Assembly: GCA_037783545.1 (NCBI GenBank)
Contig: JBBELK010000992.1
Location: 1,054,001-1,118,000, forward strand
DNA from: Henricia sp. BOLD:AAB3569
Taxonomy: Eukaryota; Echinodermata; Asteroidea; Spinulosida; Echinasteridae
Length of the DNA stretch: 64,000 bases
Reading direction: 5' to 3'
Below are positions 1 to 24,700 of this stretch, piece by piece. A model generated the notes under the pieces. That model had not been told where the DNA came from and did not search any database. It was given only the letters and a program-made list of their open reading frames with translations. The stretch's first letter is position 1. Each line of letters opens with the position of its first letter. The position numbers were made by a program, and so were the translations under genes.

Positions 1-3000
1 GGACCTTCTTGCTCTTTGATCTTGAAGAACTTTGATCTCTGGAGACGGTCTTTGACTTTCTCTTTTTAGATTTCCTGGTCTTTTTGCCCTTGGGTTTCCG
101 GACCTTCTTGCTCTTTGATCTTGAAGAACTTTGATCTCTGGAGACGGTCTTTGACTTTCTCTCTTTAGATTTCCTGGTCTTTTTGCCCTTGGATTTCCGG
201 ACCTTCTTGCTCTTTGATCTTGAAGAACTTTGATCTCTGGAGCCGGTCTTTGACTTTCTTTTTTTAGATTTCCTGGTCTTTTTACCCTTGGATTTCCTGA
301 CCTTCTTGCTCTTTGATCTTGAAGAACTTTGATCTCTGGAGACGGTCTTTGACTTTCTTTTTTTAGATTTCCTGGTCGTTTTGCCCTTGGATTTCCGGAC
401 CTTCTTGCTCTTTGATCTCGAAGAACTTTGATCTCTGGAGACGGTGTTTGACTTTCTCTTTTTAGATTTCCTGGTCTTTTTGCCCTTGGATTTCCGGACC
501 TTCTTGCTCTTTGATCTTGAAGAACTTTGATCTCTGGAGACGGTCTTTGACATTCTCTTTTTAGATTTACTGGTCTTTTTGCCCTTGGATTTCCGGACCT
601 TCTTGCTCTTTGATCTTGAAGAACTTTGATCTCTGGAGACGGTCTTTGACTTTCTCTGTTTAGATTTCCTGGTCTTTTTGCCCTTGGATTTCCGGACCTT
701 CTTGCTCTTTGATCTTGAAGAACTTTGATCTCTGGAGACGGTCTTTGACTTTCTCTTTTTAGATTTCCTGGTCTTTTTGCCCTTGGATTTCCTGACCTTC
801 TTGCTCTTTGATCTTGAAGAACTTTGATCTCTGGAGACGGTCTTTGACTTTCTTTTTTTAGATTTCCTGGTCGTTTTGCCCTTGGATTTCCGGACCTTCT
901 TGCTCTTTGATCTCGAAGAACTTTGATCTCTGGAGACGGTGTTTGACTTTCTCTTTTTAGATTTCCTGGTCTTTTTGCCCTTGGATTTCCGGACCTTCTT
1001 GCTCTTTGATCTTGAAGAACTTTGATCTCTGGAGACGGTCTTTGACTTTCTCTTTTTAGATTTACTGGTCTTTTTGCCCTTGGATTTCCGGACCTTCTTG
1101 CTCTTTGATCTTGAAGAACTTTGATCTCTGGAGACGGTCTTTGACTTTCTCTGTTTAGATTTCCTGGTCTTTTTGCCCTTGGATTTCCGGACCTTCTTGC
1201 TCTTTGATCTTGAAGAACTTTGATCTCTGGAGACGGTCTTTGACTTTCTCTTTTTAGATTTCCTGGTCTTTTTGCCCTTGGATTTCCGGACCTTCTTGCT
1301 CTTTGATCTTGAAGAACTTTGATCTCTGGAGACGGTCTTTGACTTTCTCTTTTTAGATTTCCTGGTCTTTTTGACCTTGGATTTCCGGACCTTCTTGCTC
1401 TTTGATCTTGAAGAACTTTGATCTCTGGAGACGGTCTTTGACTTTCTCTTTTTAGATTTCCTGGTCTTTTTGCCTTTCGATTTCCGGACCTTCTTGCTCT
1501 TTGATCTTGAAGAACTTTGATCTCTGGAGACGGTCTTTGACTTTCTCTTTTTAGATTTCCTGGTCTTTTTGCCCTTGGATTTCCGGACCTTCTTGCTCTT
1601 TGATCTTGAAGAACTTTGATCTCTGGAGACGGTCTTTGACTTTCTCTTTTTAGATTTCCTGGTCTTTTTGCCCTTGGATTTCCGGACCTTCTTGCTCTTT
1701 GATCTTGAAGAACTTTGATCTCTGGAGACGGTCTTTGACTTTCTCTCTTTAGATTTCCTGGTCGTTTTGCCCTTGGATTTCCGGACCTTCTTGCTCTTTG
1801 ATCTTGAAGAACTTTGATCTCTGGAGACGGTCTTTGACTTTCTCTTTTTAGATTTCCTGGTCTTTTTGCCCTTGGATTTCCTGACCTTCTTGCTCTTTGA
1901 TCTGGAAGAACTTTGATCTCTGGAGACGGTCTTTGAATTGCTCTTTTTAGATTTCCTGGTCTTTTTGCCCTTGGATTTCCGGACCTTCTTGCTCTTTGAT
2001 CTTGAAGAACTTTGATCTCTGGAGACGGTCTTTGACTTTCTCTTTTTAGATTTCCTGGTCTTTTTGCCCTTGGATTTCCGGACCTTCTTGCTCTTTGATC
2101 TTGAAGAACTTTGATCTCTGGAGACGGTCTTTGACTTTCTCTCTTTAGATTTCCTGGTCGTTTTGCCCTTGGATTTCCGGACCTTCTTGCTCTTTGATCT
2201 TGAAGAACTTTGATCTCTGGAGACGGTCTTTGACTTTCTCTTTTTAGATTTCCTGGTCTTTTTGCCCTTGGATTTCCGGACCTTCTTGCTCTTTGATCTG
2301 GAAGAACTTTGATCTCTGGAGACGGTCTTTGAATTGCTCTTTTTAGATTTCCTGGTCTTTTTGCCCTTGGATTTCCGGACCTTCTTGCTCTTTGATCTTG
2401 AAGAACTTTGATCTCTGGAGACGGTCTTTGACTTTCTCTTTTTAGATTTCCTGGTCTTTTTGCCCTTGGATTTCCGGACCTTCTTGCTCTTTGATCTTGA
2501 AGAACTTTGATCTCTGGAGACGGTCTTTGACTTTCTCTCTTTAGATTTCCTGGTCGTTTTGCCCTTGGATTTCCGGACCTTCTTGCTCTTTGATCTTGAA
2601 GAACTTTGATCTCTGGAGACGGTCTTTGACTTTCTCTTTTTAGATTTCCTGGTCTTTTTGCCCTTGGATTTCCGGACCTTCTTGCTCTTTGATCTGGAAG
2701 AACTTTGATCTCTGGAGACGGTCTTTGAATTGCTCTTTTTAGATTTCCTGGTCTTTTTGCCCTTGGATTTCCGGACCTTCTTGCTCTTTGATCTTGAAGA
2801 ACTTTGATCTCTGGAGACGGTCTTTGACTTTCTCTTTGTAGATTTCCTGGTCTTTTTGCCCTTGGATTTCCGGACCTTCTTGCTCTTTGATCTGGAAGAA
2901 CTTTGATCTCTGGAGACGGTCTTTGACTTGCTCTTTTTAGATTTCCTGGTCTTTTTGCCCTTGGATTTCCGGACCTTCTTGCTCTTTGATCTCGAAGAAC

Positions 3001-3663
3001 TTTGATCTCTGGAGACGGTCTTTGACTTTCTCTTTTTAGATTTCCTGGTCTTTTTGCCCTTGGATTTCCGGACCTTCTTGCTCTTTGATCTCGAAGAACT
3101 TTGATCTCTGGAGACGGTCTTTGACTTTCTCTTTTTAGATTTCCTGGTCTTTTTGCCCTTGGATTTCCGGACCTTCTTGCTCTTTGATCCTGAAGAACTT
3201 TGATCTCTGGAGACGGTCTTTGACTTTCTCTTTTTAGATTTCCTGGTCTTTTTGCCCTTGGATTTCCGGACCTTCTTGCTCTTTGATCTTGAAGAACTTT
3301 GATCTCTGGAGACGGTCTTTGACTTTCTCTGTTTAGATTTCCTGGTCTTTTTGCCCTTGGATTTCCGGACCTTCTTGCTCTTTGATCTTGAAGAACTTTG
3401 ATCTCTGGAGACGGTCTTTGACTTTCTCTTTTTAGATTTCCTGGTCTTTTTGCCCTTGGATTTCCGGACCTTCTTGCTCTTTGATCTTGAAGAACTTTGA
3501 TCTCTGGAGACGGTCTTTGACTTTCTCTTTTTAGATTTCCTGGTCTTTTTGCCCTTGGATTTCCGGACCTTCTTGCTCTTTGATCTTGAAGAACTTTGAT
3601 CTCTGGAGACGGTCTTTGACTTTCTCTTGTTAGATTTCCTGGTCTTTTTGCCCTTGGATTTCC
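1..3663 (-). repeat. 37 tandem copies of a 99-bp coding unit
   Basis: The unit boundary (ggacc or tgacc, plus strand) recurs at 1, 100, 199, 298 and so on to 3664 with no gain or loss of a base across 37 units. Copies differ by only a few substitutions, so the array is recently homogenised. A 396-bp (four-unit) higher-order period is visible: the variant gaattgctc at 1935, 2331 and 2727, and ctctcttt with cgttttgcc at 1743, 2139 and 2535. A 495-bp (five-unit) block is duplicated near 414 and 909 (marker ggtgtttgac). Confidence 0.97.
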
Positions 3664-3741
3664 GGACCTTCTTACTGCTGGATTTAGATTTGTCGTTACG
3701 AACACGTTTTCCTTGATCATAATCCTTTTGTCCGGTCATAT
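1..3741 (-). CDS. Exon 38 (3' part off window): polycationic K/R/S tandem-repeat tail
   Basis: Acceptor ctcttttcag at 3751-3742. A short lead (YMTGQKDYDQGKRVRNDKSK) runs into a 33-residue unit made of TRKSKKRKSKTVSRDQSSSR followed by SKSKKVRKSKGKK. The frame is open for more than 3.7 kb to the window edge, about 1,247 codons. Each unit has 17 Lys/Arg, 9 Ser and one acidic residue (net about +16). An in-frame ATG occurs just after the acceptor, but the frame continues from exon 37, so it need not be a start. The composition is superficially like SR proteins, histone tails or silica-precipitating silaffins. Fusion behind nine lectin domains argues for an extracellular role, but that is inference. 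No stop codon is seen. Confidence 0.9.
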
Positions 3742-6700
3742 CTGAAAAGAGAAGAAAAGTACAGGATAAGAATAACTATCATAGTGCATTGAAAGCCTGA
3801 GCAATATCGAGTTAGGACTGTAGTTAACTATTTTCACCTGAATGCGGTTTCCTTGAGGATGGTTAGTCACATTTGGTCAACAATATGGAACCATAGTCTT
3901 GACTAACTTGAGGTATTCACCTGGAAAGCAGCTGGGCCCAGTTTCATAAAACATGTTTTCTGCATTAGCAGCATTATAAACGGTATCTGTTTACGGCAGA
4001 AGCACTTTGTGAGCCAAGTCGTGTGCTAAGCAGCAAGTTTTTGTGCTAACTGTGCACAATCTACTTTTGTCTCCATACTCAAGATTAATTTTTCCAAAGA
4101 AAGCACAGTAGTTTTATTGGTCAAAGAAATAACCCAATTAGCGATATTTTCAAGACTTATCAGTGATAATTTCTCAACATTATTGTAGAGATTTGGTTGT
4201 GGTGGATGTTTAATGCACAAGAATGCAGCAGATAAAAATGTTGCACGTTGATTTTTAAGTATGCCCTGTAATCATGCGTTGTGAAACACGTTTGCATTCG
4301 AGCATGTGTGCATGTTATGGTTAGTGCAAAACTTTGTTTAAAGACACATTACATGATTGGAAAATTTATAAAAACAGGAACAACAGCATTAGAATAATGT
4401 TGATAAACTGCCTAGTAAAAATTTCAGCCACATACATGTACTTCAGAAAACCTGAAAAATCCTTGCATAATTTTGTGTGCACGAATGTTTTTTTTTTTAC
4501 AAAGCACTTTCAGTTGGCAATTTCTCCCACCATTTTACACGGGAAAAAATTCATGTGGTGTTTGTTACCGTTGCTGTCAACACTTTTAGTCGTTTTCTTC
4601 TTGTGAACTCATGAAGTATTTTGGTTTATTTGCAAATGATGTATTTTGGTGAGATGTTCTCACCAAAAAAGCAAAAATGTAGACGTGTGAAGAAATTCTG
4701 AAAAAAAAAACGGGATCAAATCTACTGCTGTCGACAACTGTCACAACTTATCAGAAGTTCCATAAGGTATAATTTAAAAATGAATGGACTTGGGTTTAAT
4801 TTCTGAAGAGGTATTTAAGGGATACATGTACTTACAGTGCATACAGATCAGTGGTAGAGCTTTCTTACAGCCATTTGCTCCCCAGGAGTAACTGCCATCT
4901 ATCTTTCTAGATATTGGAAAAACAAAACGCCAGTCAGGAACATTGTGCTAGGATATTATTCCCCAGTGTTGTCCAGAAGCGCCAGCTGCCTGCGATTTCA
5001 CCGGCCTTTCTGTCATTTTGCTGCTGGCTACTTTTTCGATTTTACAAAAGAAATCTTGTTTATTTCCTATAGTACCGAAATTACTTTCAAATCTCTTGTG
5101 TACACAACCGACTACTCATATTTTTTTCTCCCGTTACTCCAAAATCTGTGGACAACACTGCAATACACATTTATTTGCAGTAATCATGTGTTGTGAAACA
5201 CGTTTGCGCTCAAGCATACATGTATGTGCATGTTATGGTTAGGGCAAAACTTTGTTTAAAGAAAGATGACATGATTGGAAAACTTTTAAAAACAGGAACA
5301 ACAGTATTACATAACTAAAGAATAATGTTGATAAACTGCCTTGTAGAAATTTCAGCCACATAGATGCAGTAATACTTGATAAATCATGTTTTGTTGTGTT
5401 GGCAATTTCTTCCACGAAAAATAAAATCATGTGGCGTTTGTTACTATTGCTATCAACACTTTTAGTCAGGTTTTTCTTGTCAACTCATGAAGTAAAATCT
5501 TGAGTCACTGCAAATGATGTTTTCGGGCTTTAAATTGTACAATAGTAACATAAGAGTATGTAGTTGTAAATGCAGGAAATAAAATGGAGTTTCTAACACC
5601 AAATGAAACCATCTTTTCAATGAAAACCCTGTGTACCAATTTCCAATACCGGGACGGCCTAAAATGTAACACAAGTGTCCGTCCCGGTTACGAGCGTAAA
5701 TTGGAAATTTGTACACGGGTATTTCCTGGAAAATATTGTCTGTGATGCCAAAATGCCCCCCACATGCAAAAAGCTGATGATTATTTTGATGAACTCACAG
5801 TGTGATTACAGCGCATTTGCTGTTTTGCTTCTGTGGAGCCTCGCCGTCCGGCCAGTTGGTGTATGAGACAGCTTTGCCCTTAGCATTAGTCCAGGTTCCA
5901 TCTGATTGTAGCTTAGCATCCAAGTAATACTTGCCTGTTTGTCACACAACAAAAGAAATGTTACCTTTCATAATGTACATGTCGAGTGCTTGGGGTTCAA
6001 ATGTGTTAAGTGCAATTTTGGCCATATTGAGTTATTTGCATATTCTTGGATAATTTGGGATGCTCTTTTCAATGCACACATCAGTTAAGTGCTAATAACA
6101 CATTGTCATGGTGAAAACTGCATGAGAAGTATGTGCAGATTGTCAATTGCCCAACCTAGTTTGGTGCACAAACATGTTAACTGCTTCTATCACAGATGTG
6201 TTAAGTACTTTTTTAGTAAATAACTTCGGCTTTTAATTAATTTTATGACCCATATCATATTCAATCCAAAGTATATTATTACAAGAAACACCATTTGTAA
6301 GGAGGAGCATGTGGAGTACACCCCTGATTTTTCACAACTATTACAACATTCAACTGGATTTATCTAAAAACTATAACATTGCACTTAACACATTTGAACC
6401 CCAAGCACTCGATTTATAGTACACCAATATCTCCGCATGCAGATGTAATCTTCCTAACTCTTTAAAAGAAATTGAGTTTTCTGAAAATATCGATTCTTCA
6501 TTAGAACAAAAGTTTGTTGGATACAGAGAACTTGTGCATAAAAAAGCACGGTATGATCAACCAATCACTCTGGAATCCCTTTCAAGATCGTTCCGCTTTA
6601 GTGACTCCCTCCAGGTCCAATAGGACCTGCTTGAACTTAAGTTATTCCCATCAGTGCTGTAGTCTAGTTCACACTTTTCGAGTCCGTTGTGTCCGAGTCC

Positions 6701-9700
6701 TAGCCCTTGAATCCGAGTCCAGCATTCATGTGAGTTCTCAGCAAGCGGAGTCCGAGACCCGAGCCCTTGTTTCGGTCACAAGTGCAATACTATCAAGTTT
6801 TAATAGCCACAAAAAAAATAAATATTGATTTTTTAAATTGTATGTTTCGTCTGCCAAAGTTGTTTGTGGATAAACGTAAAGGGGGATAGTGGTACCTCGA
6901 AAGACGACAACTTGCACCTCTTTTATTGATTGCTTGCCGTGACGTAAAACATTCAGGAATGTTTGGTGGTCAACAGTCACGCGTGTAGACGCACATGAAC
7001 ACGCGTACAAAATAATCTCCAGCGTATTTCATTCGAAGATGCCGCACATGCACGTTGCGATACGTTCAAATGATTGAGCATGCACTCGGCTTGTAAAAAC
7101 AAAGGTGTTTTTACTTGATCACGATTTACTTGATCAGGACAGTTTCATCTTTATCGATACAACAGCCATGACGCAACAACATAAAGCAACAGAGGTAAGT
7201 GCAAACCAATGCGCTTTTCTTGCTTTTTTTGCCGTTATTAACTCGATCCACGTGCGTCATGAAAAATAGAAATCAAAATGGTGGATGGAAGGTGTTACAT
7301 CACCGGAAAGCAATCAATTAGCCGATATGGCCAGTGCCACGAAAGTGAAAAATGTTAACAAAATTGGCATTTCTGAAGAGGTTTTATAAAATGAAAATCT
7401 AGCAAAAAGATTTAATGTATTTATAAAAAAAAAATATATAATAGAAACATGTGTTTTACTGTAAAATTGTGAAGTTTTAAGAGGAAAAGTTTCTATTTTT
7501 TCAGGTAGAATTTCAACAACAAAAATAAACAGTCAATATGTAACTCCTTCTCCCCTATAATTTTGTTATGGTTTTATCATGTTTTATAGTACACTTATAT
7601 TTTAACCGTTTTTTAAAATCATATTTTTCTTGATTTGATATCCATTTATTTGTTTTAGTTTTAGTTTTATACGTTGGTGGCTGTTTATGATTTCGTTTTT
7701 TTTTAGTCCTTGTAACAGGGCACTAATGGATAGCAGTTTTTTAACTGTATAATTGAAACTGAAAATAATATGCACTTTATGGATGGCCTTTGTTCCCAAG
7801 TCTTTTTTATGAGAAGTCCGTCGGAATATGAAGAACGTTGCCCAATCTACACCCAGCAGAAAAGCACTGCCAATTCAGATCATCTTACCAAATTTCTTTT
7901 CTTCAAAGAGTGCACTGACAATCTCCGTTTCTTGCTTCTGGTTCTGGAATCGCATCAGATGTCCACCACCATTGGCTGGGTATTTCCTTCTGCAATGTCT
8001 GGCTCCGGACTGCCACGTGAATTTGCCCTTGGGGAATGACAAGTCCAGGCGGATGGCAGTCTGTCGCTTTATGTCGCGTTTGGGATCGCGAAGAACTGGT
8101 GTAGCTTTGGGTTTTTTGTCTGGTAAAGAAAAAGATTCTCCTCACATTTTTCCAAACGAATAAACTTTTATGATGTTTAGGATCGCAATGAGAATTTAAA
8201 TGTATTTAAAATGGGAAGTTAGTACTGGATTGCATCAACAGAAGTTTTACATTTTTCACTAACCCACCACCTATAAAAGCTTATAGATTGTATACTTTTT
8301 TTATGTTTTCATTATGGCACTAGGGCAAGGATTTTTATTGGGCCTGGGAGTGATGTGTATTTTTCATATGCATCCGTAATCACCAGGGGCAACCTTTAAA
8401 GTGTCCGCTGAATGGTTAACCGGTTAACTGCAATCTGGTTAAAACTACAAACCGGTTAAAACTAAAACCGGTTACTGAATTAAATGTAAATTCCCAACCT
8501 TAAAATATACTGGAAAAGAAATCATATTATTTTTTTCAGATGCATCCTTGTTGAATCATTGAAAAAATAAAATTAAAAATCAAAATGCGACTCGACCGTG
8601 TAAAATGTGTCTAATGTCACACAGTCCGGGCCGATCATTTTGCAACCAATTCTAGAAATCAGTGGTTGATCCAGGCTCATTAAATTGAAATACAATGGAA
8701 ATTCTTGGCAGTACCCGGAACATTCTAGACAGTGACTGGGTACTGGCCAGAATGACCATTTTATTTTCATATTTTAATATAGGCCTGGATCCACCGCCGA
8801 TTTCTGATTATGGGCACAAAAACACAGTCCAGACTGTGAAACATTCAGGTCCAAAATGCTTGTCTTAACTTACTGAATTGGCAAATAAAACCATCAAGAA
8901 CCAGGTCACAAGGCCCATCATGCCACTTATATCCGTGCTCGGTGCTGTCAACAAATCAGACAGACAAAAATGTTAGTTGTAGTTTTCCATATAAGCCCAT
9001 AGACGATATTATCATATGAAATCAAGCTTTTGAGGATACTACTTTTTCTGATACTGTGAGAGCCCCAATCTGATGTGTAACATCTAAACGGGGTGCACCA
9101 AAATACATATGCGCGCTTCAAGCATAAAGTGAGTGCATTGTTTGTATACATGTATGTGCAACATGCGTGCGAGTATGGTGTACATACAAAAATACCCTAC
9201 AACTGTAACAAAAGCACATACAGTTGTGAACAACTTACTCTTTCGCGTTTAGGTCGACCGGTTATGGGTAAAAACGGCGTATTAGGACGACCGACCGCAT
9301 TAGGGCGACCGATAGCCGGTCGTCCTAACGCCAAGTGCTTCAAAAACCATCTTTATTAGGTCAAAAACCATTTTTATTAGGTTCTTAACCATTTTCATCT
9401 AGGTCACAAACCATTTTCATCTAGGTCGCAAAACTTTTTTTCAGAGAATTAGGTTGAGAAAATGGGTGTCAATTCATGAGTTTCTTTCCGACAATTTTGT
9501 GGTTTTAGTGGTCTCTGTAAGCACTCTACCCAAAACGGTCGTCCTAATACGGGAAAAATAGTTATCAAACATCTCACAGACATCTCCCAAAAGTAAGCTT
9601 CATTTTATATAATAATATTAATAAAATAAATACACGATTCATATCAATTAATCCATTTTATGGAGAGCGTTTCGCCCTTTGCGAGTTTTCAATCCTCTGT

Positions 9701-12700
9701 CTACCCTGGTACCAGAGCTGTTGAATTCTGGTGCACAGCCACATGTCAATTGTTCCTTTGTTATGTTATACATAACAAAGAGGCGGTGATGAAGCAGTCC
9801 AATGATTTTCGTGGTATTTTACCTAATCGCATATAAGTGTTTTCGCATCGTGTTTCGCCCTTTCTTTTGACTACCCTTCAAACAGCGTGAAGCAAGCAAA
9901 CATTAATCCACCTCCCTCCCCACCTACCAATGAGGTTATACTTGGAATGTTTTAGCTGTACAATCTGATTATAAAATGTATTGAGTCAGTGACTACAGCA
10001 TACTACATGTATAGGCTCGGTTATCAAGAGGTAAATCATGTAGAGGTAAATCTATGTATCTATTTTCTTAATAGACTTTAGCGTAAATAACCGAGTAAGT
10101 TATAAGCCAAACTAGTAAATATAACTTAAAGAGGAAGAATCCCCCTTGACGAAAATCCAGCATTTAGGCTTTTTTCGATGTGGATTTTTATTATTTTTTA
10201 ATTGTCGGTTTTAAGTGGATAAATTGCAAGCAAAAGTGCGCTTTTCGAAAATGAGATTTTCGCGATTTCTGAAACGCTCATTAGGTATTCATGATATGCG
10301 TGTGACCCCGTGACGCAATCCTGAGAAAGAGAAGTCAACACGATTGTTAGCTCCATACGTTTACACGCAAACAACTTGGAAAACCGTCTCTGTTAGATGG
10401 TGTTTTTTTAAGAATTTTGTTGGTCCAAAAAGCCAGAGATATGCCCAGTAGCTGCGTGGTTGTATGTTTTACCAGACACTATACAAAAAAAGAGAGCAGA
10501 ACAATTTTCTTTTCTATTACCAAGAGAGAAAAAAATGAGTCGCTCATTCTAACTTGTACCGGCCGATGCCCGCAGGGAACCGTTCCATGCTGTACACAGA
10601 CCGCTGTGAATGCCGTTCGATCCGTGACAAAACCACCCGTCGCAATGCACCAGTATTTACTTCAAAAGAGCTTCATTGTGAGCCACAATTTCACCGTTTT
10701 TTCACAAAACAGGTAATACATGTAGTAGATTGTTGTCATATTACATGAAGTGTTTTTCACGTTTGTATTTTGAATTACAAGGACAAAACAGGCATGATAA
10801 ACATTCACTTCGTGTATTTTCCATTCAATACTGCACAGACCGTTTTGTATGTTTCTCAGGATGACGTCAAAATCCTGTTGATAAACAAACCAAGTGACCT
10901 CGAGCGTTTCAGAATTTCGGGTGAAGAGGGTCGGAACTGCTTTACGTTTTAAGCAAAAGCCTGTCGATTTTTTGTCAAAAACAAGTTGTGATGGTGTTGT
11001 AGACACATACACCTCCATGATTAACAGAAAAACTTAAAAAATGTGGAAGGGGGGATTCTAGCTGTTTAAGAAATGACGTTATTAGGGTAACGAAATATGT
11101 TTTTGATTTAAACTGCATATATATCTGCATTCCTTCCAGTATATCTAAAACACATATATCTGCATCTTACCTGATGAATGCGCAGTTCTCAAATTTTCCG
11201 CCGCTAGGTTCTTGCCTTTTACCAACTCTGAACCAGTTTGTGTAGCTCAAGGAATCACCATTGCTGTATGTAAACTGTCCTTCTTTCATAACATCTCTGG
11301 CATCAAACCAGAAATTACCTAGGGGACAGCACAAAATAATAGCTATATGTAATTCAAACCACATGTTATCATCGACGATAAATCAACATTGATGAGAACA
11401 TTTCAAACCTTTCACAATGACGGCCGTCCACACCGTCTTCTAACATCGATGACCCTCGGTTTTTGCATGATTACATTTTATATCTGATCTATAAGTTAAT
11501 ACCAGATTCACCATGTCCAAACAGGCACTATAGACTACATTGTATGTAAGTTGACCTCGCGAACGTACGAGACCGCGCGAGACCACTGTTATTTCCGGGC
11601 ACAAGACCCTATCTCTTCAACGCACGTCGCGAGCGAAAATCTTGGATTATTTTGTTTACGCAGGTTTTTGTAAACTCAGACGGCCCAAAACGCGTATCTC
11701 TAAATAAAATCTTGCATTCCAATTGATGAAGTGGGGTATATAATCAAAAGTAAGCAATCGAAATGTAAAAATTCACGATCTTTTCTGAGCCGACAAGTCA
11801 ATCTTTAAAGATCGTAAACTACATGCAGCAAAAGATACGCAACACGCACAGCAGCCGACGTACGTACGTAGTACGTAGGCCTACTGTGTACATACAGACC
11901 TCGCTAGCGATAGGTGAAACGCCATCTACCAAAAGTAGAGCTTGCAGACTTTTTTTTTTTTAGAGTGCCCAAGTTCGAAGCATTCATTTTCACATGAATC
12001 CACACTTGGGTCATCCATTCCAAATTGGATGAAGAATATGCTAGCAGAGAAATGTATTCAGGTCACGAAATTTTAATAAACTTTTATCGTTTTTAGAGAT
12101 AATTATGCATGTCTTATATATTGTAAAAAAACATTTTAGTTACCCGAATCACTTTCGGGTCGGTTGTATACTTAAGATTTATATACAAAATTTATATACA
12201 AAAAACAAAATCTCGCCCGTGTTATAGGAATAGGCGTTTTAGTCGTGTTGTGCCCGGAAGCTCAGTTTTGACCTTTGCCGCGAGACTTACATAGTCTATT
12301 AACTTCAACAGCTACTTGAAGTTAGCGTGTTAAAAAAGTTAGTGTGTTAAACATAGGAAATCTTGTAGTTTTAAACTTGGAGTTTCATCAAAGTTTAGTC
12401 TTCATAGAGTGTCCACACAGGCAATAACTACAAGCTTATCATTGGTGATTAAAACTTTGACGTTAACATCAAGTTGTCAACGATCATCTGAACGGGCCTA
12501 AAGTGACAAGCTGCGTTCACACATACACTTTAAACTCATGAAATTGGGAGCAGTTGGTGCCACCATCTGGTGCACTAACATGCTTTTGAGCAGGCACCAC
12601 TGGAGATCCCTTGTGCCGTACTCAAAGCTGGCTAATGCGTCTGACACTCAATCCCGGTTTCCATGGCATGGAGTGACTATAGGAGCATAACTACTCCCCC

Positions 12701-15700
12701 TACCCCCAGCAGTTAGTTGGGTTCCCAACCAGTATTTGCTGGTACTCATTCACACACTTGGGTGGAGAGAGACAATGTGGAGTGTCTTGTCTAAGGACAC
12801 GATGCGATAGCGGTGCACGACCAGGGGCGGTATTCAATTCAAGACTCAGATTAAAGGCCCTGTAGATGATCTGTTTTTGAGCGATTCTGCGAATAAAACC
12901 ATTATAAATCAAAAGAAAGACATCAACAAACTCATCCGAACAAAATTTCAGCTTTGTCAAATGTACCACGTTTAAAAAAAAAATGAAAATCCATATGCAT
13001 TTTACTGGTCTTGGCGGGGTGTTTCAAATATTCGTTCTCAGTTGATCGGGTACTACATGTATGTGGCTTGCGTCATGCACTCTGTGGCGCACATACTGCG
13101 TGTGCGCACGATCCATAAAAATGCATCGCGTTAGAAAACGCACACGCAGTACACAGCGCCCATGCATTTTGGACCGCGTAGATGCGAACCAAAAATAAGT
13201 TAATCGTATGCAAACGATCTAAATAATTTCATCTTTACGGATTATTTTCTGGTAAAATTATATCATTTTGAGCGAAAACCTTTCATTGGATAGTTGTTAT
13301 TATTTCAATCTTTACTTTCAGAACTTTTCCCCTGTAAGCTCGTCGATTACTTTTTGGGGTCATTGCAAATGATCCACTGGGCCTTTAAGTCAAAACTATA
13401 CTTAGTATTTAGCTTGGCTAAGAAAATGACTTATCTAATATTCAAATGTCTCCTAAGATTTTTACTTTAGAATAAAGAATACTCAGATAAATTGCAACGT
13501 CAAAAAAATATACGCAGGGTGCAGAACTCACTTTAAACAGCCAATCGAGTACTGCGTGGGATGCACAATAACCCACAACTTCTCATGAGCATATTTCTTA
13601 CGCAAAACGTGTTACACGCGCGCCCAAACAAAACCAGTCAAAACCGGTTACAGTGTGCGTATGATGAATGTACAATTTTGCTTAAATGTACTTCCCTGTC
13701 TTCTCAAAATTATTACATTGCCAAAAAGAACCATTTAAATATGCTTAAGTATACTGAAACGCAAAAGAAACTTACCACTTGTTTAAAATGTAATGAAATT
13801 GTAACAGTTCAAAATAAAACAAACCAACAATTGCTAATTGAAACATTAGCATTTTATTGATTACATGTCAAGTTTTTGACCAAGATACACCATCTCATCA
13901 GTTTGTTCTACAGTAAAGAACAGAAGAGGGTGCAATGTCAGTCCCCTTTCAATAGCGTGTGTGGCCACCATTGATTTGGATACAGGCAGTGCATCGTCGG
14001 CGCATACTGCCTACCAGTCGTGGCATGTTGCTTGAAATGCCCATTTTGCACTGGCCTTTTTAAAGCCAACATCAAGACATCACGTGCAGCTCATTACAAT
14101 CATCCCATACCCCTTGGCTAATCACTGACAGTCAAAACAGCTGTTCAACAGCTGTGCCATGAAGTGACCATTGAAGGTTCAAGTGAACTTCAGACACCGT
14201 TTGGTCTGACAGTGAGGACACTATTGTCCACAAATAAGTTCACACATTACTACACGCAGTGTTATTGTTGCTATTTAAAGGTTCAAAAGGTGGTAAGTTT
14301 CTTTTGCGTTTCAGTATATTATAGTGAAGTAAAAAACTTCACCACTTATAATTACGAATTGAATACTAATTTTGGCTAAGAATTTTGCTTCAGCCAAAAA
14401 CTAAGTAAAATCCTAATAATATTTGGCTTGAGTATTGAACTGAATACTGTCCCTGGCCTCAAACCATGGACTACTCGCCCGATAGTCTGATGCACTATAG
14501 GACAACTGGGTTACCATTGGTGTCATGATTACTTATTATGGCGGCATTTCGCCAAATTAGATAGGAATATAAAAATGAAAAAAAAAAAATCACTTCGTTG
14601 TCCCAATCCAATGTAGCCATGGCATATACTGATTTCAAACTCACCAGCAAAATTCTTCCTAATTTTGCCACGGCTAAGTCTGGCGATGATATAGTCCATG
14701 GTGTCACGGTCATAGATACGAGCCAGGTGACCAGACCCACGTCGCATCTTGTTGCAGTACTCGTTTGCTTTGGCCCACGTTGTGGCATGCTTTTTGCCGT
14801 AGTAGATTCGGTAATAGACTCTAACGGGCTTAGGCTGTGGGTTGTCAATACCATCTTGGACAGGAAAGGGTTGCTTGTCATCTAATGCGTTAAGAGAAGG
14901 GGTACATTATTGGAAACTGTTATCTCATTTTAAAGTAAAATGGTACCTTTGTTGGGGAAATTGCCAATTTAAGGTGCTTTAAAAAACAAGTTTGCAAACA
15001 ATATTTTTACTATTCATTCAACACAAAATCCATGCATGGATCTTAAGGTTTTCTGAAGTACTGTATGACTGTATCTGTGTGGCTGAAATTTCTGCAAGGC
15101 AGTTTAGTAAATGTAATGCTATTGTTCCCGAAATTCGTAATATTGTTTTCATCTGCATAATAGCCTCTGGGGATGTGTGCAATAAAAACCAAATTAGTGA
15201 ATGTAATATTTGGTTTTGTGCCTAATCACAACAGAAATAAATAGCTTATGGGTACACCCAAGTAAATAGGCAAGATCTGTGCGCCGAGCTCATGAATATT
15301 TTGTATGCCCTCAAATTCTTCTTTATTAGGCAGAGTTGCGAGCTGAACGAGTGTGGTCTTGTGTAGAATATGACTATCGTCGCGATGTGGGGTATTTTTT
15401 CTTCCAACTACAAACATTTTAGACACTGTAGCTCCTAAAAGTGGCCCTATTTTGCCCAGTAGCGTATGTGCCTTTGTTCCAAAATGGATGCAGGTCTGAT
15501 TAGCAAGTTTCACTGTTGTTAGGGGTAGTTTCGTTTCAAATGGAAATTAGGGAATAAAAGTGACGGATTACCCCCATAAAATTGAACCGAATTAAAAAGA
15601 TGAGAAATCAGTGAGTATTCTGGTTGTTGTCCTGAGAAGCTGAGAGAGTATTTTTAAATGATTTTTGAAAATTGGGCATTGGTTCCTATGGGAGCCCTAT

Positions 15701-18700
15701 TTACTGGTGTGCAACCTTATAGACCCTTTTCACAGGCGGCCATGGCAGGGGGTAATGACATAGTTATCATGCGTCATGCACAAGCAGGCACTTTGTGAAT
15801 CTATTGTCACATCATTTAATTGTAAAAACTTGGTTCCTGTCATGGCCGCCGGTGCAGAAACTCTATATAAAATAGCTTATTACCCTTCCACATTGATTAG
15901 GCGCTATACCAAGTTTTTGCATTTGGGTCTGTCCACAGTAATGGGGTACATTTAAAAAATAAGTGAATAATTCCTTTCCCAAGATGTCTTTAGTTTATCT
16001 CAGAATTAAATAAATGTCCTTGTTTTGTTCTCAGGAGATAACTTTTGCCCAAAAAGGTAAGAAATTGCTGCCACAACATACATTTTTGAAAAGCAAGTGT
16101 ACACATTTTCCTATTACGTAGGTAACGTGGACAGACAATTTTGTGAAATTTTTGTCCGTCTTTGTTACATGCGTAATAGGAAAATTTGTGCACGGGGTTT
16201 TCACAAATGTATGTTGTGGGACTATTTTTCTTACTCAATGGTGAAAAAGTTATTTCCTCAGTTTAGCTTGATAATTTAAAGATAAAATTAAGACATTTGA
16301 AGTGAACTGGGACCTAAGATCTTGAATGTTACAGAAATGTACCCCATTACTGTGGACAGACCCATTTGTAAACTAAAACATTAATGCTTGAAGATTCACC
16401 TTTTTGGCAGATGATATTTTTCTTGTCACTGCAGCGAGTCATTTTCAAGCTCCACTCTTCTTTATTTCTGAAAAAAAATGAAAATAAATTAAAATCACGA
16501 TTTCCAGATAAGTCTCAAAAAGGTTTGACTAAAAGATTGTGGATTTCAATGTTTTGTTTTTTCCTTTGAAATAAGAGTACTGGTTATAATTCCACGGTTA
16601 CAAATGTAGTAACGATACAGATTTAGCAATTTACTGAGGTTCTATCCTCCGTTATATTAACACGCAAGCCTGTAAGTTCTCCATTTTGGTACCATCAAAT
16701 AAAGCATCTCACCAACATCTACTGGACAGTAACAATTAAAATCATTTAGCCCATTTTGTGAATTGTAATGAAGATTTTAATCTTGGTTAGTAATGTTACA
16801 AAAAAAGTAATGTTACTAACCAAAATGGGATAAATGATTTTAATTATTTCTGTCCAGTTGTTGGTGAGATGCTTTGATGGTACCAAAATGGAGTACTGAC
16901 AGGCTTGCGTGGTAAACAGAGGATAAAACTCAAGTAAATTGCTAAATATGTAACATTTCTAACCGTGGAACTGCCTATATATTCATCTTTACATTTCTGA
17001 TTGTGATTTTCAAATCAAAAGTCTTTGGTCGTCACCAAATCACGGTCTTTGGCAAGTTCATCTCAAATTGGTGCATGCTACCAAGTTAAGCATTATGCAT
17101 TATCGGGTGCATGACGCACAAAAATGTGTCAGATTTTTAACTATTTCACATATCACATGTCACAATTAACTGACATTTGACAACCGTGATTTTGTTTCAC
17201 TCTAAAGTCAAAGTGCTGAACAATGAAAAACCGTGCAAACAGGGATGTAATTGGATGTTTGAAAAAAAAACCTTAAATTGCGAGCGCACAGCATGAAGCC
17301 ATTACGGCGTGGGATTCACACGATTCACAGGGGTCATGGTTTTTGGCTAAAAAAACCTGATTTCAGGGAAAAAACCTGAAAAATCACATCCCTGTAACAA
17401 GAATAAGTTTACTTCTTTCTGTAATAAATAAAGCAAATTAAACCCGTTTCAGAAATTGTTTTATTAACTTTTGATGGATTGGTTGCAACTTACGAGAAGT
17501 ACACACAACCACGTATTCGTCTTTCTTTGGTATTGGCTTTTGCAAACTTGCGGAAAGTTCCTTTCCGACCGACACCCCGTCTCATCTGCCCATCTAGCCA
17601 GAATTTATCTAGAAAGGAATTTAGTGAAAAGATTCAGTTTATTATAAAATGCAAATAAAGCAGATCATTTGGATTTATTGACACCGCTCTTTTCTTCTTG
17701 GCATTCAATTGGGAATTAAGGTTGGCATAGGAGCATGTTTCTCTCCTTCCACACATTGCTTGATTTTCATTACCAGAAATACGTGAACACACATTGTGCG
17801 CATGCGCGAACTTAGATTGACTGCAACAATGTGCATACCAACGATCAGAACGAAAATGCAAAAAGCATCGATCATGCCTAGCGTAGCGCGTGCAAGCACG
17901 CTTAGCCCATAGTTACATGTAAACATTCACTGTGCGTGCGTGTAACATGGTACACAGTCCCCTCATTTGACAATGCATAGTTCCGATTTTGCCCAGTTAA
18001 CCCCGCCCCCTTGGACATTGTTGCTATGGCTCACACGCTATCGTCAAAATGGCGACACACAACGCACAAAGCAATGGGACTTTCAACGGAAAGCACAGAT
18101 TCATTGAAGAAAACTCAAAGGTATTCATGTTTCAGGGTAAACAGTTATCTTAGAACACACTGAGTAAAGGGCCAGTAATACAGGGATATCATATCATCAC
18201 GAAATATAGCTTTCGTACCTTTGAACAACGAAACGACCGGTCTTGAAACCAAAAATTCACCCGGATCATCGCATACAACACTGTGAAAATTGTAAGGGGC
18301 CGGCAGAACATATCGCGTGATCATGTTGTTCTGAGCGTACAGTGCACTTTGACCTATGTGGGTGACATCTGCTAGCTCTGTTGTGATTGGTCGGCGGGTT
18401 CGGTTGATTGACAGGTCGGAACTATGCATTGCAGTTCACAAATTTCTGGTAATGTGTGAAAGGGTCAGGGTCTTTCTCTCACCCCTAAAACTGAGAATTT
18501 CTCAATAATAACAATGTGGATAATTATAAGGAGCACATATCACGCATAACATGACACTTTACATTATTACCCCTGGTCATTGGGCTCTTAATAACATTCT
18601 TTAACTTGAACCTTCTCATCAGCTCCCTGGGGGGTATACAGCCCTAGCTGCTTATTACGCGCTCATTAGCTAATCCAACACATTAACCTTCACAGACCTC

Positions 18701-21700
18701 ACAGGTACCCATTTACTTCTGGGTAAAGAGAGGCAATTTATGGCAAAGTGCCTTGCCAAAGGGCACACGCACCATGGGATTTGAACCCACAACCTGTAGA
18801 ATCAAACAGGTCTTGAGGCATGAACTTATTTGGAGCATGTGTACAGTACGTCTGGCTAATTTCAATCCAAATTAATACACAAACTGTTGCAAAGAGCTAA
18901 CTACCAACCAGCAGTACCTGTCATAAAATCACACAGTAAATTCAGGTGCCTAGTCTTTTTTAAAGGTGAAATACATGACTGGCATCCCGAGGAATCAGAA
19001 ATGTTCACAGATTTACACTTACGATGACGGTAGAAAACGTCCCCTGAAATGGTTTTGTCTGAAGTGCTATAGTCTTTGAGTAATTAGCAAAACAATTAGT
19101 TTTCGTCTCGTGAGATGTAAATCCATTTCGCCCCAAAACCACCTCCCCCCTGGACCACTTCGCCCTGAAGCACTTAACCCAAAGGCCATTTCGCCCCAAA
19201 ACTACTTCATCCAAACACTACCTCGCCCAAATGCCACTTCGCCCTTAAACAACTTTGTGCACAGGCCGTGGCTTAGGGCGAAGTGGTTGTGAGGCGAGGT
19301 GACTGTAAACCATTTTTTTGACTGTCTTCTCAAAAGTTAGACGTAGTACGGAGCTGGTTTTTGCTCAGGTTGGTTTTAATCATGCATACCTTCAATCACA
19401 CAGGGGAATGAAACTACTTATAATGGTTTACCAATCATGTATACTACCTGTAACCTTTCAGAGTCTTCTTTAAAGGCTTTTGAAGAAGACTTTGCTAGGA
19501 TCAGAACACAAGGCCACTATTCAAGTTTACAGCGCAAATCTAGAACAGCACCTAAACTGCAGACCATACCTTTTATCTTGTTAGTGTTCAGGAACTCAAG
19601 AATGCGGTTTCGTTGTTCCTGGTTTTGGATGCGCAACAGATGAGCCCCTTTACTGCGGCAGTACTGCTTGGCTTCTCCCCATGTATAGCCATTGTCCGTC
19701 CTCTTGATGTGGTAAGTCACCTGCTTAGAGCTGGTGATTTCCTCAGGGACGTCATCTGATTGGGGTAGGGGAAGGTCCTCTGTGGGTGACGCTGTAGTGC
19801 AAAGTACAGGTATGGTAAACTCTGATTAAAGACAGATTACATGATTGGAAAACTTTTAAGAATAGGAACAACAGCATCACATAACTCAAGAATAATGTTG
19901 ATAAACTGCCTTGTAGAAATTTCAGCCGAATAGATACAGTAAAACTTCTCTTACTCTCACTGGATTTTCAAGAACAGACTACAAATGTAGCTATGAAACA
20001 TCTACGCTGAACTGTGTTTGTGAGTACTTACGCTGTCGTTGGCAAAAATATTGGTATTTCTTGTCGCATTTTGCAGCAATCCACGAAGCATCCTTTCTCC
20101 TATAGAACATACAAAAACCATAAACTTTACAAATCACTAATAATAATAATAAAATAGACTTATACCAAGCACTTTTCCGGGGAAACCCTGATAAAGGTGC
20201 CTACATTATTATAATCATTACCCCTGATCTTCGGGCTCCATTAAATTACTCCATGTACATGTACCATCTCAGCTCAATGGCTATTAATCAAAACCATTTA
20301 CTCCTGGGTGGAGAGAAGCAACACCTGGCAAAGTGCCTAGCATAAGGACACACGGACTGACGGACGACTGGACCAGGATTCGAACCCACAACCTTTAGAA
20401 CTAGCCAAGGTTTTGAATATGATCCACCAGACTGCTCTGCCATGGCACTTCACTCTTAAAGAAGTACACGACACCCAAGAAAACAAATCAAACCGTACAT
20501 TATTGTTATACAAAAATAGGAAATACATGTACGACCCATTACATGCATTGTTATACAAAAAATGGGATACATATGTACATTTATGACCCATACATGTACA
20601 TGTATAACCAATTTGCAAGTGCTTACTGTTGGTTTAAATGTATGTGTATTTTAGTCAGAGTAAATTGAGAACACTTGCTTTAAACCTCCACCATTTCCGT
20701 CACAGGGGTTGTATAGTACTGACTGAGGGGCACATATTGAAAATTATAACACCTCACCCACAGATTCTGTATCGTGGTTGGTCGAGAGCGTGTCACGTGA
20801 CGCTGGCTATTTTTGTACAAGTGCTCCAAAAGGACTATACCATGCACCATTGTTCTGGAAAAGTACTATACCCGTAGCAACAGGGGAAATATATCCGGCG
20901 AGCGTCCAGGGCCTGGGACGTGCGCAGCGCATAGCTGGCCAGCCCTTCTTTTGGAATTATAAGCAATAACAAATTTTTGAAGAAGAGAGTTACGATGGAG
21001 ATACGATTGAGAGCAGACAGTATCAACAGTGTAAAAAGTTTGATGGGAAAATAAAGAGATCGATGCTTCTGTAAACGGAACCCTTATAGTCTTCAGTGAC
21101 TTTAATTGTTTAAAAGAGTTTCACTACAAAAATGTCAGTACATGCCTTAAATACATTGCTGTTCCATTGGAATTTCTGAATTAAATTTGATGAAACTGAT
21201 TTCCACTTTAGGTGTTTTATTATTGATATTTTTGTTTAAACTTAAATTAAGCAGAATCTGTGGGAGAGGTGTTATAAAACAAATATTGACTGCTTTATAT
21301 CTCGTGGTATAGTAAAACTAGCCTCTCTCGGTGACCCACGGAGCATTCTATTTTCCCTCGGCTTCGCCTCGTGAAAACAGAATGCTCAATATTTGTATAC
21401 TAGATACCAATCAACACTTTTAGGCATCATTTTTAGTGAACTTCCTTATTATTAAACTTGGAATGGGACGAAAATGACTACATGTACTGGTACATAATAC
21501 CTGTGTATTCAAAACCAATGAAGCGAGACCGGTAACATTTTCACTGGAGTTACAAACTTAAGTGAGCTTTCCATATTTAGACACCAAATTGAGAACAAAT
21601 ACTTGATTTTGGTAATTTTATTCAGCAGTCAATGAGACGGACATTTTTTTGGGACACGCTATATATACGTGCTGTTTTCGAGCAAATTTGTGTCCTCGAG

Positions 21701-24700
21701 CAAAAGCAGATTTTACCTGACAACAGCACACGATTGGCCTTTTACGTTCATTGGGAGGCCATTGTTGTAAACCATTGGTGAGCCAGAGCTGTAGAGCCAA
21801 GCATTAGTGTCAAGAAAGGCAACGTTGTAAGTTACATCCAACCAGGTTTGTCCTGAAATTAAATCACATGCCAAGAAAAAAAATTATTTCTCTGGACGTT
21901 TCAAATGTTAGCTTTCACATTAGTTCATTTTGAATGTCAAAACCCCTGGTCTTCTGAGAGCCTTTAACCGCAGGATTCTTCCAGAAACAGAAAAATACTG
22001 TGGAAATCACTTTATTTAAAAGCCCAGTGTATCATTTGCAATGACCCCAAAAAGTAATCGACGAGTTTACAGGGGAAAAGTTCTGAAAGTAAAGATTGAA
22101 TTAATAGCAACTACCCAATGAAGGGTTTCCACTCAAAATGATATAATTTTACCAGAAAATAATCCGTAAAGATGAAATTATTTAGACTGTTTGCAAATGA
22201 TTTACTTATTTTGGGTTCGCATCTACGCGGTCCAAAATGCATGGGCGCTGTGTACTCCGTGTGCGTGTTCCAACGCGATGCATTTTTATGGATCGCGCGC
22301 ACACGCAGTATATGAGGTGTGCCACAGAGTGCATGACGCAAGCCACATACATGTAGTACCTGATCAACTGAGAACGAATATTTGAAACACCCCGCCAAGA
22401 CCAGGAAAACGCATATGGATTTTCAGGGTTTTTTTTAAACGTGGTACATTTGACAAAGCTGAAATTTCTTCGGATGAGTTTGTTGATGTCTTTCTTTTGA
22501 TTTATAATGGTTTTATTCGCAGAATCACTCAACAACAGATCATCTACAGGGCCTTTAAATAGGTGCTCTTGGATCTGTAAGTAATCACTGAAGCGGAATA
22601 GCCTTTAAAGTGATTCCTAAGTGATTAGTCGATCAGTGCCTTGTGATCCACAAGTTTACTGTATTCAACAAACCTCTGTTCTGATCAAGACTGATAAAAT
22701 TGCATTTCATTTTTTGAACCTCGTATATGATCCCTCACAATTTAATATTGGCCAATGCTACACGACCGCTGTTTCATGAAACTTAATAACGCCTTTAGTC
22801 TGAACTTTTACAAATATATAAACTTGAAACCTTTATTACGTTTGCGAAGTGGTAGGTAACTATTGTGAATTTACTATCTCAAACCTATCAACAATTCAAA
22901 TTTTCTAACAAATGCTAATCATATTTTAGTAAGGCCATTATATCCAACTGTGAAACAATCAGTGCTGCAGTCAAGACGTGTCCAAGACCTCTTAAATAAA
23001 TCAATCAGAATTCTGCATTTAATGATTTTAACAAGGCTTGGAACAGGCACAAGATAAGTTCTATGCCACTGTTTTATAAGTAACCTTTACCAATTTTGTT
23101 GGTTGCAAAAGTCTCAAGACCTTTGACCAAAACAAATGGCCTCAATATTTCTGAATGTGAAAGTATTCAAACTGTGTGTTTAAATATATGAATATTAGAC
23201 AGCTTTTTTTAATGTCGTGCAAAACAAATACGAATTTTAGAAACGTCTCAGGAAGGTCTCTGAAAATTCTCAACTGCATCCTTAACCATCATTCATAAAT
23301 ACCTTAGACAGTTTACACATCCCTATTGGCTTAGAGCACATCACGTTGCCAGTCTTAAACATACGACAAAGACCAGCAACCGCAGCCATGCCCGCACCCT
23401 AGTCAGTTTTAGCACGTATGGAACACACACACCCCCGAAAGCAAACTAGACGCACTGTGACAAAAATTAAGTACCCGGTCGTGTGCGAGAGTGAACAACA
23501 CATCTGCAATACGCTTAACGCGCGCAATTAAACAAGAACAACGCAAACTGCAGTTTGAACGAACGTGAAGCGTGTAAGAAAGTACAATGCAAAGCATGGA
23601 AAAACGACAAGCTTACTGGCAAAGAATTTCAGTTATTTATGAATGGGAATAAAAGTGGGTTTGGCCGATCTTAAACAGTACGTTTAAAACTGGCTTTTTA
23701 AACGTACAGTTTAGACCGGCCAAACCCACTTTTATTCCCCAATTACTAGCTACAATTACCCATACTTTTATTTTTGATGTGCTTTTGCAGGTAGTTCTGG
23801 ACCACAGGGTCGTGTATCCCCAGCAGGGTTGCACCGCGCTGTGTGCAGGCAGTATGGGCCTCTGCCCAGGGGAGACGGCGGCGGTACAAACGGTAGGTGA
23901 AGAGTCTGATTTTGATGATTTGGGCTCTTTCTGGTTTCTTCTTTGGCCTGGATTCTGTTGGAGTGTAAGGGTATTTAGGATAAATTCAACAAGATTGCAA
24001 TTATTATCCCACCGAAGTATGAAAACTGCAGCCTAAGATGGATGCTAGTGTTAGGTAGATTCACAAGCTGTAATATTAAGTGCGTACTCCATAATATACA
24101 CATTTGTGCATGCAAATTGTGACCAGCAGGGGTCAAAATTAGCACTAGTCCGAGACAAGTGGTTTTTGCCAGAGGACTACTAGCTGCATTGTGCTGGTAG
24201 TCCAACGGGCTAGTGGGCCAATACATCATGCTACACCATGCACCGTCTTTCGTTTAATAAACATTTTCTGTTGATATTATTCAAGACTTTTGCATTTTGT
24301 GTTGATATGACCGATTATGTTGTTCATCATGTTGACATGCGTTAAAAAAACGAAAACGATAGGCCCTGAAATGCTCAATAACTTTATGCACAGTTTTTGC
24401 TGCATATGAAGGATTACTTGTGCAGAAAGACAATACTACTGTTCATTTTGATGCCCCATGAATCAAAAGTGGCATTTTTCAACTTTGAAAATTTCTTTAC
24501 ATAAATTCACAGAGAGAAGGCACTGTTTGGGGCATGTCACTTTAGGAACACACAGCAGAAAAGCAAAGAAAAAAACATAAGACTTCAAACTGGAATTGTG
24601 GAAAAATGCTGCAGTTTCCAGCCTTAGTTTCTTCATGGTTTGCAACGGGCAACATGTAAAACAAACCCAAACCGTCATGGGTTACAAAAGTTTCAGCAAG

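Follow-up and report, generated by a model that had tools for sequence, protein, structure and literature searches.

A giant lysine-, serine- and arginine-rich repeat exon in a sea-star lectin and discoidin gene and its possible role as a polycationic cross-linker

A 64,000-nucleotide stretch of the genome of the sea star Henricia sp. BOLD:AAB3569 (the window; positions 1054001-1118000 of contig JBBELK010000992.1, hereafter C992, with negative window coordinates lying beyond its left edge) begins inside a tandem array of units rich in Lys, Ser and Arg (the K/S/R array). Splice phases, an in-frame link to the last of ten C-type lectin domains (CTLDs) and the absence of a stop in 2,419 codons make it well supported that the array is a coding exon, and it falls within a gene model for a very large protein that also carries discoidin (F5/8C) domains. 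We propose, with a probability of about 0.5, that this protein is a polycationic cross-linker of acidic glycans in mucus, adhesive or matrix.

The original prediction, made from the letters of the window, described a coding exon of at least 3.7 kb; the exon proved to be 7,629 bp long, on the minus strand from window 3741 to -3887 (C992:1050113), and the window edge cuts the array. The minus-strand reading is open from window 3775 to that edge. The acceptor (tttcag/AT at window 3741, phase 1) fits the preceding CTLD exon, the donor (AAG/gtaagt at window -3887) is of the consensus type, and both are the top-scoring sites. Over the full array the coding frame contains 0 stops in 2,419 codons, in keeping with the prediction, and the other frames contain 4 and 81 stops (sense) and 203, 72 and 82 (antisense). 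An alternative minus-strand frame (RRSGNPRAK), open for 1,245 codons in the window, was rejected because the full array holds 4 stops in it and 0 in the coding frame, the frame that the splice phase joins. The predicted range of 68-302 bp for other exons holds for all 36 other coding exons modeled in the window, which are all on the minus strand and make up three-exon CTLDs, two-exon F5/8C domains and one linker exon. The array exon is not the sole giant exon of the gene model, as an upstream exon outside the window measures 2,402 bp.

It could be argued that the array is an assembly error, or that the exon is absent from mRNA, and another contig of the assembly, C955, does contain three COX1 matches at a spacing of 16,221 bp. 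We consider this very improbable, as the array runs without a break into unique sequence at either end, its splice sites are in the right phase, and 43 distinguishable types occur among its 71 units.

Tandem Repeats Finder (TRF) reported 37.1 copies of the 99-bp unit at window 1-3673 (97% matches, 0% indels). The full exon contains 72 repeat anchors, and at 36 of these the whole unit falls inside the window; the 71 intervals between anchors measure 33 residues in 62 cases, 41 residues in seven (an in-frame addition of 24 bp) and 30 and 23 residues in the last two. All seven 41-residue units lie outside the window and every unit inside it is 99 bp long; the claim of 37 units of exactly 99 bp therefore stands for the window part but not for the rest. 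The consensus unit, TVSRDQSSSRSKSKKVRKSKGKKTRKSKKRKSK, contains 17 basic and 9 serine residues, reproducing the predicted count. The array comprises 2,419 residues (Lys 34.6%, Ser 26.9%, Arg 14.6%) with a net charge of +1,090; the in-window reading gives +567, close to the roughly +590 predicted for the visible part. The whole model protein has a mass of 670 kDa, an isoelectric point of 10.7 and a net charge of +1,198, which falls to +108 without the array. One codon of the unit is variable (Lys 30, Glu 26, Gln 7, Thr 4 and Ile 1 of 68), being mostly Lys in the 5' half of the array and mostly Glu in the 3' half (window 1-3673 to about -3570). This Lys-to-Glu shift adds S-x-E motifs, of which the array has 26 and which are possible secretory-kinase sites by consensus.

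The gene model comprises 54 exons over 106.8 kb (C992:1152820-1045997), extends past the right edge of the window to C992:1152820, and encodes 5,942 residues in one open frame that ends in TAG. Every intron is GT-AG, and the modules are symmetric, with phase 1 at both ends; this agreement is partly built in, because the model admitted only GT and AG sites, and in several exons phase or domain fit decided over the top-scoring site. The third exon of CTLD1, the second exon of F5/8C B and the first exon of F5/8C A were found under the phase constraint, and the exons upstream of the second giant exon, which encodes GDKPEPS-type heptads, are the least certain part of the model. From the N terminus, the order is a hydrophobic segment (MASQQLLLCLALVLNGALS), a fucolectin-like domain, F5/8C A (including exon 83911-83838 and acceptor 82646, window coordinates), the GDKPEPS heptads with the first part of F5/8C B, F5/8C C, D and E, CTLD1-4, a linker, F5/8C F, G and H, CTLD5-9, the K/S/R array, an acidic Ser-rich linker and CTLD10, giving totals of one fucolectin-like domain, eight F5/8C domains, ten CTLDs and two repeat arrays. 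The K/S/R array forms the 5' part of the first exon of CTLD10, the last CTLD, a linker position that in the first exons of CTLD1-9 holds 17-37 residues before a conserved Trp.

The Lectin_C profile (PF00059, cut-off 22.6 bits) recognized CTLD1-2 at 124.6 bits in two stretches, CTLD3-4 at 106 bits in two, CTLD5-9 at 185.9 bits in five and CTLD10 at 39.5 bits in one, and four conserved Cys columns are present in 10 of 10 CTLDs; profile and canonical cysteines thus both assign them to the C-type lectin domains. The F5_F8_type_C profile (PF00754, cut-off 28.2 bits) similarly assigns the scanned modules A (50.5 bits, over the full profile), B (32.4), C (43.9), E (30.6) and F-H (122.6 together, in three stretches) to the discoidin family. 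Module D is identical to F5/8C C at 137 of 144 residues. The region of C and D (window 66763-73083, minus strand) looks like a recent tandem duplication, with five same-strand aligned DNA pieces 84-90% identical (a 640-bp overlap of the compared slices excluded). The N-terminal fucolectin-like domain passes PF22633 (36.4 bits, cut-off 27.8) and scores 20.7 bits with PF00754, below its cut-off. No Pfam family was found at E ≤ 1 in shortened samples of the array and linkers.

We also searched the 740.7-Mb assembly for related sequences, scoring only the best candidates, so that absence is not proof. Within that scope there was no second copy of the array or of CTLD10, all 33, 3 and 31 matches lying on C992. 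For CTLD8, 48 of 52 matches were on other contigs (22-34% identity), as were two of six for F5/8C G (E values of 8e-4 and 0.007) and five of 24 for the GDKPEPS exon (best E value 1.6e-5).

The N terminus, read by eye, resembles a signal peptide, and the protein is probably secreted. A nuclear basic protein was considered and rejected by inference, since splicing joins the array to lectin domains that follow this signal-peptide-like start. With three quarters of its roughly 2,400 residues being Lys, Ser or Arg, the array is very probably disordered, and a secreted chain of such charge should bind polyanions. It contains 154 matches to XBBXBX, the heparin-binding consensus. We therefore offer the following scheme as a conjecture from the sequence: anchored by its discoidin and lectin modules, the protein would use the polycationic array for many-point binding to extracellular polyanions (sulfated or acidic glycans, or acidic proteins) and would thereby cross-link a secreted gel, namely adhesive, mucus or extracellular matrix. 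The length of the array may change through unequal exchange of units.

Among described proteins, the cohesive proteins of flatworms come nearest in layout. Mlig-ap1 of Macrostomum lignano has KR-rich regions over 3,600 residues and a C-type lectin domain, and heparin impairs attachment (PMC6410801); Tmed-ap3 is a 3,700-residue protein rich in Lys, Arg, Gly, His and Ser (PMC9229212), and charge interaction is central to the published models of flatworm cohesion (PMC6410801, PMC9229212). Like Mlig-ap1 and Tmed-ap3/Mile-ap3, the sea-star protein is very large and has a long K/R-rich, low-complexity stretch (Lys plus Arg make up 49.2% of the array), and like Mlig-ap1 it contains C-type lectin domains, here ten by Pfam. 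Unlike these proteins as described, it has eight F5/8C domains beside its ten CTLDs and a sharp 33-residue K/S/R unit. By analogy, it may work like the flatworm cohesive proteins without being a member of their family.

Echinoderm adhesion proteins share other parts of the layout. In sea-star footprints, FA58C or galactose-binding domains occur in Sfp10 and Sfp11 (PMC9382459). Nectin is a 984-residue protein with six discoidin domains, and the adhesive proteins or candidates of one sea urchin include a small basic CTLD protein as well as Nectin (PMC10057474). Like Nectin and Sfp10/Sfp11, the sea-star protein has F5/8C or galactose-binding domains; unlike them it has CTLDs and a cationic array, neither of which is reported for them in the available portions of these papers. 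No open-licence paper was found that combines sea star, lysine, arginine, C-type lectin, discoidin and repeats, most subscription papers being outside the scope of the search. We speculated further that sea stars, independently of flatworms, have a giant polycationic lectin protein that would provide charge-based cohesion in a reversible underwater adhesive, which we regard as quite unlikely. Each chain would carry about +1,200 charges, the copy number of the 33-residue unit would tune the cohesion, and a secreted polyanion would release it. On this reading, the protein could have escaped the sea-star adhesive catalogues if trypsin cut the K/R-rich array to tiny peptides.

Several findings weigh against the proposed cross-linking role. 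EPN and QPD are sugar-site motifs of CTLDs, and by eye nine of the ten have neither; sugar binding by these nine is therefore doubtful. CTLD4 carries QPD and WHD by eye, at the usual sugar-site positions. The vWD, C8, TIL and EGF domains recur in known animal adhesive proteins, and ap1 itself has vWD-C8-TIL and a run of EGF domains; none of them was found in the scanned domain segments (Pfam, E ≤ 0.01) or at E ≤ 1 in the shortened array and linker samples, with the 35-residue linker exon and module D outside the scan, and for this reason the sea-star protein is not filed as an ap1 member. The main text of the catalogue of Asterias footprint proteins (PMC9382459) does not once use the term C-type lectin, and so an adhesive role, too, is tentative. 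Finally, selection on the frame is not significant when the units of the array are compared with each other, as set out below.

That the array expanded recently is clear: an exact match of 559 bp recurs at a shift of 396 bp, the 71 units fall into the 43 distinct sequences noted above, and the 62 units of 99 bp differ from the consensus by a mean of 1.58 substitutions. Those 62 units hold 40 distinct variants, of which 14 are synonymous, 26 nonsynonymous and 0 stops (expected 10.1, 28.5 and 1.4). Neither the surplus of synonymous changes (P = 0.07) nor the shortage of stops (P = 0.20) is significant, and the surplus is absent in the other two frames (P = 0.43 and 0.94). On a rough count, the probability of no stop is 0.09 for 40 distinct changes, or 0.003 if all 98 changes were independent, which they are not. 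The original prediction held that selection on the frame, recent expansion or both must be acting, and called for a comparison of synonymous and nonsynonymous change between units; expansion is plain, but for selection "must" is too strong, since that comparison, made here in one assembly, gave no significant synonymous excess. A single unit mixes serine codons (TCC, TCT, TCA, AGT and AGC) and arginine codons (CGG, AGG and AGA), which suggests that residues were kept while the DNA drifted. The K/S/R array's own constraint is thus suggestive only.

The second repeat array gives a firmer result. Its 99 heptads read GDKPEPS (53), GDKPGPS (35), GDKPKPS (six), GDKPGPP (three), GDKPVPS (one) and GDNPEPL (one); the array is Pro-rich, carries a net charge of -49 over 694 residues and sits beside F5/8C domains. 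Eleven of its 17 distinct variants are synonymous, against 5.6 expected in the coding frame (P = 0.001), an excess that neither of the other frames has (P = 0.90 and 0.43). This sister array is thus under purifying selection, and hence the gene shows selection.

These data bear on the main rival explanation, that the K/S/R array is a tolerated expansion: an inter-domain linker grown by unequal exchange into a flexible spacer without further role. Its place at the linker position of a CTLD first exon, the near identity and recent block duplication of its units, the failure to reject neutrality by either test and the wide variation at one codon of the unit would all be expected on this account. 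Set against it are the lack of any stop over the full array (with the rough probability of 0.09 given above), the mixed serine and arginine codons and the purifying selection on the other array of the gene. We judge a tolerated expansion possible but on the whole unlikely.

A role in the skeleton was also considered, in which the protein would act on carbonate mineral in the manner of spicule matrix proteins or molluscan KRMPs. Lysine-rich basic regions occur in silaffins, which are secreted matrix proteins too, and both silaffins and KRMPs differ in size from the sea-star protein. The lysine-rich region of KRMPs is described as interacting with bicarbonate or with acidic proteins of the matrix (PMC3120837), and the sea-star protein, itself probably secreted, likewise has a lysine-rich basic region; unlike it, KRMPs and silaffins belong to mineral contexts, and KRMPs are described, in the available portion of the source, without a lectin domain (PMC3120837). 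In the spicule matrix proteins of sea urchins a CTLD is coupled to repeats described as acidic and Pro/Gly-rich (PMC5460417), and both the number and the sequence of the repeats differ among species and also inside a species (PMC4336488, PMC5460417). The sea-star protein shares with SM50 and its relatives a C-type lectin domain and a repeat domain, and its GDKPEPS-type array is Pro-rich; however, its K/S/R array is basic, it has many more domains, and no acidic Pro/Gly repeat was found beside a CTLD. By the standard criteria of the paper, no CTLD protein was present in the skeleton of P. miniata (PMC5460417), which makes a skeletal role less likely in a sea star. Overall, we find a skeletal matrix function decidedly improbable.

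Another hypothesis is that the array is a precursor from which proteolysis frees many cationic peptides, antimicrobial or signaling, as might be suggested by a cationic unit of 33 residues that is repeated, nearly unchanged, about 72 times. However, there are 0 furin sites (RX[KR]R) and 29 [KR]R pairs over 71 units, hence no regular per-unit site of either kind, and we hold this hypothesis to be extremely improbable, although cleavage at other basic sites may occur.

Table 1. Coordinates of the array exon, the lectin and discoidin modules and the second giant exon (window coordinates unless C992 is given)
Feature	Position	Strand	Details
Window part of array exon	1..3741	-	5' end YMTGQKDYDQGKRVRN, then 33-residue K/S/R units
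Array exon beyond window	to -3887	-	33- and 41-residue units, acidic Ser-rich linker, first part of CTLD10
CTLD9	4836..8119	-	exons 8119-7889, 5934-5799, 4906-4836; Pfam PF00059
CTLD8	8874..14881	-	exons 14881-14645, 11318-11171, 8944-8874; Pfam PF00059
CTLD7	16400..19791	-	exons 19791-19570, 17608-17494, 16467-16400; Pfam PF00059
CTLD6	20032..23954	-	exons 23954-23760, 21852-21717, 20099-20032; Pfam PF00059
CTLD5	25012..27617	-	exons 27617-27435, 26788-26653, 25079-25012; Pfam PF00059
F5/8C domain H	29003..30694	-	exons 30694-30480, 29153-29003; PF00754
F5/8C domain G	36393..37708	-	exons 37708-37434, 36540-36393; PF00754
F5/8C domain F	38848..40544	-	exons 40544-40282, 38995-38848; PF00754
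Pro/Lys-rich linker exon, 35 residues (provisional)	42409..42513	-	phase and splice sites only
CTLD4	43065..44910	-	exons 44910-44704, 44157-44007, 43132-43065; Pfam PF00059
CTLD3	46248..48696	-	exons 48696-48490, 47603-47471, 46342-46248; Pfam PF00059
CTLD2	49160..54463	-	exons 54463-54260, 50787-50652, 49233-49160; Pfam PF00059
CTLD1	55804..61132	-	exons 61132-60953, 59150-59012, 55871-55804; Pfam PF00059
F5/8C domain E	62324..63748	-	exons 63748-63447, 62477-62324; PF00754
Second giant exon, GDKPEPS-type	C992:1129533-1131934 (window 75533-77934)	-	2,402 bp, 99 heptads

The introns of the gene (Table 1) contain other sequences. A short open frame between F5/8C G and H (window 30793-31113, minus strand) resembles, by eye, the C-terminal part of a reverse transcriptase of a long interspersed nuclear element. 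Two near-identical translated stretches (window 51058-51571 and 57038-57541, minus strand; for example DFKLDLWQIAAVSTPSFVMAYSRQHVKQTQTAMDYKSF) mark an interspersed repeat in two introns, and degenerate tandem repeats of 11, 22 and 33 bp, of the GTCACAAGTCC type, were found by TRF in an intron at window 35787-36092.

The spacing of the COX1 matches on C955 equals the length of the mitochondrial contig C2104 (16,221 bp), pointing to a concatemer or an assembly artefact. COX1 has 0 stops under translation tables 5, 9, 14 and 24 and six under table 2; of these, AAA is read as Asn only in tables 9 and 14, which give Asn at COX1 positions conserved as Asn, as fits echinoderms. The mitochondrial order (tRNAs from ARAGORN, ND1 and ND2 recognized by eye and the rRNAs placed by the gaps) is 12S-E-T, inverted ND2-I-ND1-L-G-Y, then D, M, V, C, W, A, L, N, Q, P and COX1, in agreement with the starfish inversion (PMC3308324) and the Acanthaster order (PMC7396427). 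Genetic code and gene order of the mitochondrion thus both indicate a sea star.

The gene model presented here is testable and describes an animal protein of extreme charge, from a group in which the chemistry of adhesives, mucus and matrix is poorly resolved. The K/S/R array cleanly exemplifies the in-frame growth of a coding repeat within a single exon, and the other array of this gene is under purifying selection. If the combination of polycation and lectin arose separately in sea stars and flatworms, it would suggest that reversible, charge-controlled cohesion under water follows a general design.

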